Shown one piece after another: positions 11,254-15,367 of a DNA stretch of 37,823 nucleotides. Under the pieces are notes generated by a model. That model made no database searches. It saw nothing but the letters and a program-made list of their open reading frames with translations, and was not told the DNA's origin. Position 1 is the stretch's first letter. Each line of letters opens with the position of its first letter. The position numbers and the translations under genes are program-made. Where the stretch lies: the NCBI GenBank assembly GCA_021545645.1, contig JAJRWP010000024.1, forward strand, positions 1 to 37,823. Reading direction: 5' to 3'. Source of the DNA: Zetaproteobacteria bacterium. Its GTDB lineage: Bacteria; Pseudomonadota; Zetaproteobacteria; Mariprofundales; Mariprofundaceae.

Positions 11254-11382
11254 GTTCAGTTTCTGAACCTGTGAAACATCCGTGAAACACGCTAACGGTT
11301 CAGTTTCTGAACCTGTGGAGCATGCCGAAAAGGCTTTCAAGTTCAGTTTCTGCACCTGTGGTGTTCAGTTTCTGAACTTGTG
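11254..11382. repeat. Iteron-like array: four copies of GTTCAGTTTCTGAACCTGTG
   Basis: Copies at 11254-11273, 11298-11317, 11341-11360 (CTGCAC variant) and 11363-11382 (CTTGTG variant); start spacing 44, 43, 22 bp; each contains GTTCAG-TTT-CTGAAC dyad (one degenerate). Confidence 0.9.
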
Positions 11383-11735
11383 TTCTGTTTTTTCCAGTTT
11401 ATCCATTCGCCAGAAAATGCGTATAGGTTGGGTCGCTTGTACAGCCCACCACGTTGGGTGCGCTCTATGAAGCCCTTTTCTTCCAGTTCTCGGATCGCCT
11501 TGGCAATCGTAGCCCTTGCCATGCCGCCGTTCATGTCAGTGTAAGGGCAGAAAATAGGTTCACTGAGACTGCCCGCCATGCCTTTTGTCGGGTTCTTATG
11601 TCGAATAATGGAAAGGAAGACCCGCACTGCCGAATGCGAAAGACTGTTGAATGCCTCCGAATCAAACAAGGGGTTTTCCACCATGATAAACAGCGGGCCT
11701 TTCCTGCCGCGTTTCATGTTTCGCTGATTCGTCAT
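11343..11735 (-). CDS. Winged-helix/HTH DNA-binding protein (candidate replication or copy-control protein)
   Basis: SHSAVRVFLSIIRHKNP...GMARATIAKAIRELEEKGFIERTQRGGLYKRPNLYAFSGEW looks like a winged HTH; start overlaps upstream ORF stop (ATGA). Confidence 0.7.
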   Translation of the reverse strand: MTNQRNMKRGRKGPLFIMVENPLFDSEAFNSLSHSAVRVFLSIIRHKNPTKGMAGSLSEPIFCPYTDMNGGMARATIAKAIRELEEKGFIERTQRGGLYKRPNLYAFSGEWINWKKQNTSSETEHHRCRN

Positions 11736-12463: not shown

Positions 12464-12712
12464 TCAGGCTGCCTGATTCGTATCTTGACGGTCGCGCCAG
12501 TCCTTACCTGCGGCCAGCAGATCGCAAAGTTCATCAATAGCACTTGTTTCCCATGCCGTAGTGCGCTCGCTGAGTTTTATGCCAGCCGGAAATCGGCCTG
12601 CTTGAATGCCTGCCCACCATGCCGAGCGGCTAACCGGAACACGTTGCAATACGCGCGGCAGTCGCTCAAATCCTTTTGCCTGTGTTGATATTCCTTTGCT
12701 TTGTGATGCCAT
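12464..12712 (-). CDS. AlpA family phage/element regulator (MerR-like HTH)
   Basis: RLPRVLQRVPVSRSAWWAGIQAGRFPAGIKLSERTTAWETSAIDELCDLLAAG is a typical AlpA signature. Confidence 0.85.
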   Translation of the reverse strand: MASQSKGISTQAKGFERLPRVLQRVPVSRSAWWAGIQAGRFPAGIKLSERTTAWETSAIDELCDLLAAGKDWRDRQDTNQAA

Positions 12713-12810
12713 TTTACTGCCTCCTGTCGTCTCTGTTAGACGTTATGAAGGCTCAGCTTAGACCCGTAATAATGCGAAAAAGAATTGAAAAAAAACCTTT
12801 CGCCTATGTG

Positions 12811-13137
12811 CAAGCCGTTCGACAAAGGTGTTGCTATAAAGAAAAGGTAAAATGGGTCTGTCATTGTATGTTGTGCATTTGATGTATTTGAAAAGTAATC
12901 ATGCAAGTCAAAATAGACATAGCCGCCTATTGGGGGCTATGTCTATTTGTACCTTTCTGAACTATTTAGCCCTGTCCTGAATCCCTGTTTGCAGAAATTA
13001 ATCTGAACACCGTCAACTTTCACTGGAATCCGTGAAGAAGATTTCTTGCCCAAATGAAAAATGCCTCCAACCGTTGTGATTAAAGGCATTATATCATCTG
13101 CAAAGGCTAATTAGCAACATCTTTGTCGAACGGCTTG
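12811..13137. mobile_element. MITE-like non-autonomous insertion (327 bp)
   Basis: 26-bp terminal inverted repeats CAAGCCGTTCGACAAAGGTGTTGCTA (12811-12836) / TAGCAACATCTTTGTCGAACGGCTTG (13112-13137), 25/26 complementary; flanked by 9-bp direct repeat GCCTATGTG (12802-12810, 13138-13146); no sizeable ORF inside. Confidence 0.8.
12911..12948. repeat. 14-bp perfect hairpin inside MITE-like insertion
   Basis: AAATAGACATAGCC-GCCTATTGGG-GGCTATGTCTATTT. Confidence 0.85.
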
Positions 13138-13139
13138 GC

Positions 13140-13874
13140 CTATGTGTGCCCTTGTTTGAGAATTCCACGCACCTGCTGCCTCGTAGTTTTAAGATCGCCA
13201 AACTCAGAAAGAAGATTGGCTGTAAGGGAATATCTATCGGGCATATCTTCGTGGAAAAGCCCAGCCAGCGTTTTTACAGCCCAACCCCGCTTAGCAGAAA
13301 GTCCGCTATTTTTTCCTCTCTTCGCAAACAGATCGCTTGAAAGATTCCAATTAGCCGCCACTTCAACCATTTTTCTCCCTGCTATATGCTCAAGCTCGCT
13401 TGCAAAGTCCCAATCTTTTTCGCGATCCTCCGAATATAGATAATCATTTGATATAAGGTCATCGTAACCGTAACGCTGTTTTGCCTCCCTATAAAACACC
13501 TCCGCAGCGTCTTGCCGCGCCTTGTTGTTCAAATCCACGTCTTTTTTCCATTGAACAGGATCATCAATAGAACGGCACACAAGAAGAACATCGAGAATTT
13601 CGGTACAGTGATTAAACACCATCTTAACTGGCCCGCCAAATCCATTTAATACATCTTGCAGCGCCTTATCTTCAAGCCAATCAAGCGGCCACAAGCACTC
13701 ACCATCTATTTCAAGAATACGACCGTTGAAGCGTTGAAGGGCAGAAGCCACGCCCTCGGCCAAGATGCCCTTACAAAACGCTTTATATGCTGTCTCAGAG
13801 GTTTTGAAGATACCAAAGATTTTATGTCTTGCATCAATGTGAAGTAACTTCCGAAGGTTCGTCTGCTCGTCCAC
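13140..13874 (-). CDS. Hypothetical protein, candidate cargo of the integrative element
   Basis: 244-aa ORF, begins 3 nt after the integrase stop codon, same strand; no family recognised. Confidence 0.7.
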   Translation of the reverse strand: MDEQTNLRKLLHIDARHKIFGIFKTSETAYKAFCKGILAEGVASALQRFNGRILEIDGECLWPLDWLEDKALQDVLNGFGGPVKMVFNHCTEILDVLLVCRSIDDPVQWKKDVDLNNKARQDAAEVFYREAKQRYGYDDLISNDYLYSEDREKDWDFASELEHIAGRKMVEVAANWNLSSDLFAKRGKNSGLSAKRGWAVKTLAGLFHEDMPDRYSLTANLLSEFGDLKTTRQQVRGILKQGHT

Positions 13875-13877
13875 GAT

Positions 13878-15098
13878 TCACCCCCTTTCACGATGTATCG
13901 GTATCACATCCGCGCCTGTTCGCAGTCCATCCAAATAATCAGCCCAGTGTTGCATCATTTTTTTACGTTCGGCCAAATGCTGAGCATGGTTATAGGCCGC
14001 TTTTATCTTGTTGCGCTCGGCATGGGCAAGCTGGCGCTCGATCACATCACTGGCCCAGCCCTGTTCATGCAACATGGTGGAAGCCATTGCCCTGAAACCA
14101 TGACCGACAATCTCCGACTTTTCAAAACCCATACGACGCAAAGTCGCATTCACCGTGTTTTCACTCATTGCCCGATCCCTGCTCCGCACACTCGGGAAGA
14201 CAAAACGCCCCCGCCCCGTCAACGCATGCAGATCGCGCAGGATAACCACCGCCTGCGATGATAGTGGCACAATATGCTGAACCTTCATCTTCATCTTCTC
14301 CGCTGGTATGCGCCACTCTGCGGCATCAAGATCAAATTCTACCCATTCCGCATTCCGTAATTCACCGGGACGCACAAACATCAGCGGGGCAAGCTGTAAG
14401 GCGCAGCGAGTGACATACGCACCGGAGTAACTGGCAATCGCACGAAGCAACCCGCCAACCTCTTTCGGATCAGTAATTGTTGCCATGCTTTTATGCTTTA
14501 CGGGCGCAAGTGCTCCTTTCAGATCAACGGTAGGGTCACGGTCTGTGCGTCCCGTTGCGATTGAATAGCGGAACACCTGACCGCAAACCGCCCGCGTCCG
14601 GTGCGCTGTCTCTACAGCACCACGGCTTTCAATGCGGCGGAGCATCGCCAATACGTCCGGCGCTTCCAGTTCAACAATCGGGCGTTTCCCAATCCACGGG
14701 AAAACATCCCGCTCCAGATCACGAATCACCCGCTTTGCATGCCTATCGCTTAATCTTCGAGACTGCTTACCGTGCCATTCCCTAGCAATCGCCTCGAAGC
14801 TGTCAGCCTTGGCATTCTTTTCAGATTGCTTTACCACGGCGGGATCAATTCCATCAGCCACTTGTGTGCGATAATCATTACACCGACGCCTTGCCTCTTT
14901 TAGGCTCACCTCAGGATATGTCCCCAAGGCCAGCGTACATTGTCGGTTCCCCATGCGGTAATTCATTCGCCAATACTTGCCCCCGTTTGGGTGAATAAGC
15001 AGATGGAGACCGCGACCGTCAGACAACTTCACCTGCTTGTCAGCAGGTTTCGCAGCACGCACAAGAGGATCATTCAATTTATCGCTTAACCTAGCCAT
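13878..15098 (-). CDS. int: Tyrosine recombinase/integrase (P4-type)
   Basis: N-terminal DUF4102-like LSDGRGLHLLIHPNGGKYWRMNYR; catalytic FVRPGELR, HGFRAMASTMLHE, and C-terminal KAAYNHAQHLAERKKMMQHWADYLD. Start at MARLSDKLND. Confidence 0.95.
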   Translation of the reverse strand: MARLSDKLNDPLVRAAKPADKQVKLSDGRGLHLLIHPNGGKYWRMNYRMGNRQCTLALGTYPEVSLKEARRRCNDYRTQVADGIDPAVVKQSEKNAKADSFEAIAREWHGKQSRRLSDRHAKRVIRDLERDVFPWIGKRPIVELEAPDVLAMLRRIESRGAVETAHRTRAVCGQVFRYSIATGRTDRDPTVDLKGALAPVKHKSMATITDPKEVGGLLRAIASYSGAYVTRCALQLAPLMFVRPGELRNAEWVEFDLDAAEWRIPAEKMKMKVQHIVPLSSQAVVILRDLHALTGRGRFVFPSVRSRDRAMSENTVNATLRRMGFEKSEIVGHGFRAMASTMLHEQGWASDVIERQLAHAERNKIKAAYNHAQHLAERKKMMQHWADYLDGLRTGADVIPIHRERG

Positions 15099-15112
15099 TT
15101 TCAGCCCCTTTT

Positions 15113-15176
15113 GATGGTACATGCTCTGGAGGGCGGCCATGTACCATCAAATGTACCAACAAAAATGATGGTACAT
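15113..15176. repeat. Cluster of four ATGTACCA[TA]C decamers in both orientations upstream of int (includes right copy of the 22-bp direct repeat, 15142-15163)
   Basis: GATGGTACAT 15113-15122; ATGTACCATC 15139-15148; ATGTACCAAC 15151-15160; GATGGTACAT 15167-15176. Confidence 0.85.
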
Positions 15177-15274: not shown

Positions 15275-15367
15275 TGGCGGAGAGGGTGGGATTCGAACCC
15301 ACGTGACAGGTTTCCCCGTCCAACCGATTTCGAGTCGGTGCCGTTATAACCACTTCGGTACCTCTCC
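15275..15367 (-). tRNA. tRNA-Ser (anticodon CGA), CCA encoded
   Basis: Minus strand GGAGAGG...ACCGA-CTCGAAA-TCGGT...GTGGGTTCGAATCCCAC-CCTCTCC-G-CCA; long variable arm; 93 nt. Confidence 0.96.

Follow-up and report, generated by a model that had tools for sequence, protein, structure and literature searches.

A 327-bp insert within an integrative element of a Zetaproteobacteria bacterium is very probably what an internal deletion left of a cargo-bearing transposon, putatively of the DDE type. Elements of its family have ends of ~25 bp, which in the insert start with CAAGCCGTTCG, and are flanked by a target-site duplication (TSD) of 9 or 10 bp. This derivation is drawn because positions 12988–13137 match the transposase end of a full-length transposon of Mariprofundus micogutta, including ~36 codons of the transposase gene. 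Coordinates are those of the window, i.e. the whole stretch of 37,823 nucleotides that was analysed. In the parent, the gene for a ~590-aa transposase would have occupied one end and cargo genes, most commonly for restriction and modification, the opposite end. Deletion would have fused the transposase gene, at about codon 36, with the noncoding distal end, sparing both cleavage ends and a distal hairpin as well as the transposase promoter and the terminator hairpin that overlaps it. Such a remnant would be mobile only if the transposase of a relative were supplied in trans.

Boundaries and setting of the insert

The insert (12811–13137) is bounded by terminal inverted repeats (TIRs) that are complementary at 25 of 26 positions and by a perfect 9-bp TSD. 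Inverted matching placed the left, cargo-distal TIR (CAAGCCGTTCGACAAAGGTGTTGCTA) at 12811–12836 on the plus strand and the right, transposase-proximal TIR at 13112–13137 on the minus strand, the TIR of the insert being CAAGCCGTTCGACAAAGGTGTTG. The two copies of the TSD, GCCTATGTG, were located by sequence comparison at 12802–12810 and 13138–13146. These coordinates and matches had been given in an earlier sequence-only reading and were exact on rechecking; its statement that the insert contains no transposase-sized ORF was borne out by an ORF check. The whole window was scanned for inverted ends of 20 nt, within 6 kb of each other, that have a 9-nt direct repeat on their outer sides. The best pair was formed by the ends of the insert (19/20), with all others at 13/20 or less and a maximum of 14/20 in 20 Markov-1 shuffles of the window, indicating that the combination of TIRs and TSD is beyond chance.

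The insert interrupts no gene: it lies between the stop codon of a 244-aa gene of the integrative element (13140–13874; assigned to no family) and a downstream gene for an AlpA-type regulator (12464–12712; PF05930), both on the minus strand. Insertion occurred 2 nt past the stop of the 244-aa gene, which is intact because the right TSD copy holds its TAG codon (CTA at 13140–13142 on the forward strand), as had been proposed. The tyrosine integrase gene of the host integrative element lies at 13878–15140 on the minus strand and adjoins a tRNA-Ser gene (15275–15367), the tRNA being the sole Rfam match over the window.

Other repeats were seen in the integrative element. Four copies of a 26-nt iteron-like repeat starting GTTCAGTTTCTG, spaced 44, 43 and 22 nt, lie at 11254–11388 and overlap the end of a 130-aa HTH_36 ORF (11343–11735) at the far end of the element; repeats and ORF are perhaps a replication module. 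Direct repeats near the element ends (10781–10810/15139–15168, 90%; 10987–11003/15102–15118, 94%) are perhaps arm-type integrase sites. A duplicate of the tRNA-Ser 3′ end that could serve as an attachment site was not found.

A full-length relative in Mariprofundus micogutta

The first 23 nt of the left TIR are identical to the transposase-proximal end of an element in M. micogutta ET2 (L045:2113–2135) and to an end in the Solemya velesiana symbiont (L062:5944–5966). The former belongs to a 4,066-bp transposon (L045:2113–6178; NZ_BDFD01000001.1), in a genome of the same bacterial family as the host of the insert, that has its own perfect 9-bp TSD (GTTCATCCC), matches the TIR of the insert at 23/23 and 22/23 positions with its two ends, and encodes a 595-aa transposase, a D12 DNA methylase and a NotI-type endonuclease. 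Discovery of a full-length element with the same termini substantiated the initial interpretation of the insert as an inserted non-autonomous element. Relatedness seen in the searches would place the host of the insert within the Mariprofundaceae. The two have in common the TIRs, the 9-bp TSD, the transposase promoter, a leader hairpin and the first ~36 transposase codons (80% DNA identity). They differ in the full transposase and both cargo genes, which only the M. micogutta element has, and in the distal 150 bp, between which there is no relationship.

The homologous part of the insert (12988–13137, minus strand) is the transposase-proximal end of the parent and has 80% DNA identity to nt 1–150 of the M. 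micogutta transposon. The 595-aa transposase matched 12982–13089 (minus strand) by tblastn with 69% amino acid identity over ~36 codons in frame. A truncated transposase frame of 36 codons, from a likely TTG start, occupies 12943–13053 on the minus strand and is homologous only in its first part, down to ~12988. For the remaining internal segment (12837–12987), presumed to be the distal end of the lost parent, no relative was found: there was no match among the order- and phylum-level genomes, plasmids or phages, and comparison with all fetched relatives gave chance-level matches only. The simplest reading is that this segment comes from the opposite end of a parent whose cargo was different. 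It contains a strong hairpin (12911–12948) with 17-nt arms at 12911–12927 and 12932–12948, a presumed terminator, which in a hairpin scan was comparable in position to hairpins that intact elements have immediately internal to their distal TIR.

The transposon family and its cargo

Besides the insert, 14 elements with both ends resolved were obtained from Zeta-, Gamma-, Beta- and Alphaproteobacteria and Bacillota, and every one has a perfect TSD of 9 or 10 bp. In six of them (L061, L101, L060, L098, L067 and L073), the TIRs are similar in length to those of the insert and the transposases are 22–69% identical to the M. micogutta protein, whose relatives occur in Proteobacteria and, at 22–25% identity, on Bacillota plasmids. 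The insert has a TSD within the 9–10-bp range of this family and, like its members, a homologous transposase start and a TIR promoter with an overlapping hairpin.

Different restriction-modification systems are carried by five of the 14 elements. In addition to the D12 methylase and NotI pair of the first M. micogutta element, these are an Eco57I-like methylase with a BsuBI/PstI endonuclease (second M. micogutta copy, L061), an N6_N4 methylase with a probable endonuclease that had a weak library match only (L101, genome G058), and type IIG-like methylases with specificity subunits in a gammaproteobacterial MAG (L060) and in genome G267 (L098), the two methylases being different. Elements from a P. 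aeruginosa plasmid (L067), Marinobacter (L070) and R. phaseoli (L071) contain little beyond the transposase, and another (L064) carries a TauE/SafE transporter. A 3,276-bp element on an S. aureus plasmid (L073:6419–9694; NZ_CP014378.1) has perfect ~27-bp TIRs, a 9-bp TSD (ACTTTATCT) and dfrG as cargo; its transposase is a distant homologue of the family transposase. Matches to the transposase were present in 131 plasmid records, mostly of Enterococcus. According to a 2021 paper (PMC8638950), this 'insertion element protein' seems to be linked to dfrG in every case.

Several further loci were observed. A 5,555-bp family element of Dechloromonas agitata (TSD TCGAATCGAC) harbours a pair of IS21-like ORFs of 501 and 265 aa, recognised by eye (L063:8334–10629). 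On plasmid 2 of Polaromonas sp. JS666 (L068:8804–13833), genes for an AAA protein (a match to the MkoC defence model) and an HNH protein are located directly 3′ of a family transposase, and the far element end was not found. The first 23 nt of the TIR also occur once in isolation (L049:4658–4680; G041:C79), no second end being present in the 9 kb retrieved; this may be a disrupted member of the family. A 17-mer TIR scan of viral contigs gave three single-end matches without a partner end; these were rejected, being at an estimated number close to chance, and no family transposase was detected in the viral contigs.

Classification of the transposase

Residues D230, D386 and E528 are invariant in all 14 aligned transposases, a DDE-like pattern as judged from the alignment. 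The AlphaFold model of the transposase is of low confidence (pLDDT 52); it places the aspartates on beta-1 and beta-4, and its order of strands and helices is RNase H-like, as in DDE transposases. The top Foldseek matches of this model were DDE transposases, ISCth4 first, at probabilities of up to 0.96 with E-values of only 0.006–0.02, none of the matches reaching an E-value of 0.001. Likeness to the IS256 family consists of these best matches of a low-confidence model (ISCth4 structures 6xg8/6xgx) and of a spacing of ~140 residues between the second D and the E, whereas there is no whole-protein sequence match. A search of PDB sequences with the transposase profile returned zinc-finger matches only, which were judged to be local zinc-motif resemblance and rejected.

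Strict membership of IS1 is unlikely. An N-terminal zinc/HTH segment (aa ~130–204) matches IS1 in 14/14 transposases and matches InsA at 95.8% in hhalign, and the 9-bp TSD of the insert also fits IS1. However, the IS1 model (NCBIfam NF033558) scored 41.6 bits against a curated cut-off of 100, the catalytic part has no InsB match (hhalign 0.2%), the transposase is ~590 aa long, and the ends are CAAGCCGTT. The transposase was not filed under IS1 because only the zinc/HTH segment is IS1-like, the cut-off was missed and InsB was unmatched. In the IS1/IS1595 superfamily the TSD is 8–9 bp; the present family shares this TSD size and the N-terminal zinc ribbon and HTH with that superfamily and differs from it in a far larger transposase, other termini and the unmatched InsB catalytic domain. 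ISfinder lists large IS1-related elements (the ISMhu11 group), so the transposon family may already bear a name. The sequence-only reading had left the IS family unassigned; the family is now identified by homology, although no Pfam family reached its cut-off for the 595-aa protein and no Pfam or NCBIfam model names the transposase.

A promoter that overlaps a terminator-like hairpin

The insert and nine relatives share a TTG-type −35 element that is provided by the inner end of the transposase-side TIR and is followed at 16–18 nt by a TATAAT-like −10 element. In the insert, the transposase promoter (13088–13117, minus strand) comprises a −35 TTGCTA (13117–13112, inside the TIR), an 18-nt spacer and an extended −10 TATAAT (13093–13088), and was independently recovered by a promoter scan. 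A terminator-like hairpin of 13 pairs with a U-run (13060–13090, minus strand) starts within the −10 box and covaries across the family. Covariation was assessed on eight near-gapless ends of the 11 promoter ends, L062, L063 and L065 having been left out for misaligned hairpins. In these ends, 97% of pair cells were paired and six of the 13 pairs had changed on both sides; none of 500 shuffles reached the covariation score or the percentage paired, and slid controls were far lower. The stem lies partly in or beside the coding start, but the fact that pairs have changed on both sides points to selection on pairing.

Transcripts made from the element's own promoter would lack most of the 5′ arm, because the start expected from the −10 box (~13081) lies within that arm; the terminator would not form and these transcripts would pass. 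Transcripts entering the transposase end from outside would contain the full terminator and stop. On this basis, the overlap may shield the transposase from outside read-through across the family. In the remnant, the hairpins at 13060–13090 and 12911–12948 would probably separate alpA from transcription of the integrase/244-aa operon.

Origin of the 327-bp form

Two histories could have produced an internal-deletion derivative at this site. In one, to which we assign about an even chance, the element transposed as a miniature of ~327 bp using a transposase supplied in trans. In the other, judged slightly less than even, a full-length transposon of several kb inserted, lost its middle later and never moved as 327 bp. 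The compact form, intact TIRs and perfect TSD fit movement as a miniature, as does the presence of full-length relatives in the same bacterial family; the cleanness of the ends (25/26 identical) and TSDs confines any decay to the interior and is also compatible with deletion in place. Searches for a sibling count against a miniature and for in-place loss: the draft source genome (1.99 Mb, 185 contigs, 87% complete) holds no second copy, and no insert with the same interior or deletion junction occurred in 78 order-level or 399 phylum-level genomes or in the plasmid and phage collections, the latter giving no blastn match at all. Neither a transposase gene nor any other transposase piece was found elsewhere in the draft genome, and incomplete family copies in relatives (in G030, an N-terminal piece of 105 residues that includes a stop; in G012 and G028, pieces at the ends of contigs) likewise favour decay in place. 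No empty insertion site was available, the 244-aa gene having no relative in the 78 order-level genomes or the plasmid set. Given a single copy, and with neither a sibling junction nor an empty site found, the two histories are considered about equally likely.

The term 'MITE-like', as first applied, is apt in part. The insert is short (327 bp, below ~600 bp), with TIRs of 25/26, a 9/9 TSD, no transposase and ends matching an autonomous element, features that are in keeping with bacterial MITEs such as MITEAba12 (PMC6382973). It differs from these in being single-copy in an 87%-complete draft genome, and the term is not supported in the sense of a multi-copy element that moved as a miniature. 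The combination of TIRs, TSD and no internal transposase ORF had been called the hallmark of a transposed non-autonomous element; the TSD shows that something with these ends inserted, and not that this was 327 bp long at insertion. That the insert is instead an integrase attachment structure or a regulatory inverted repeat belonging to the integrative element itself, as its place between the integrase/244-aa genes and alpA might suggest, is exceedingly improbable: the same ends with other 9-bp TSDs bound transposons at unrelated sites, and the right-hand 150 bp are transposase-gene sequence, both of which refute such a role.

Discussion

Taken alone, the insert is a commonplace transposon that has lost its interior; it is of value as a pointer to a transposon family whose genes are mostly annotated as 'hypothetical protein'. 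The wider description, in which we have middling confidence, is of a family unnamed in Pfam and NCBIfam and distributed over Proteobacteria and Bacillota, comprising small simple elements (~1.9–3 kb) and others whose cargo is dfrG or one of several interchangeable short restriction-modification systems, in which the transposase −10 box would lie inside the 5′ arm of a terminator so that only the element's own transcripts escape. Such an overlap of promoter and terminator would be a simple means of keeping an element indifferent to transcription from outside. The boundaries of the family are sharp and were repeatedly verified; its members include elements from iron oxidisers and other Proteobacteria that carry compact restriction-modification systems, and an element with dfrG on a staphylococcal plasmid. 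If not already named, the family would constitute a delimited vehicle for the mobility of restriction-modification systems and of dfrG.
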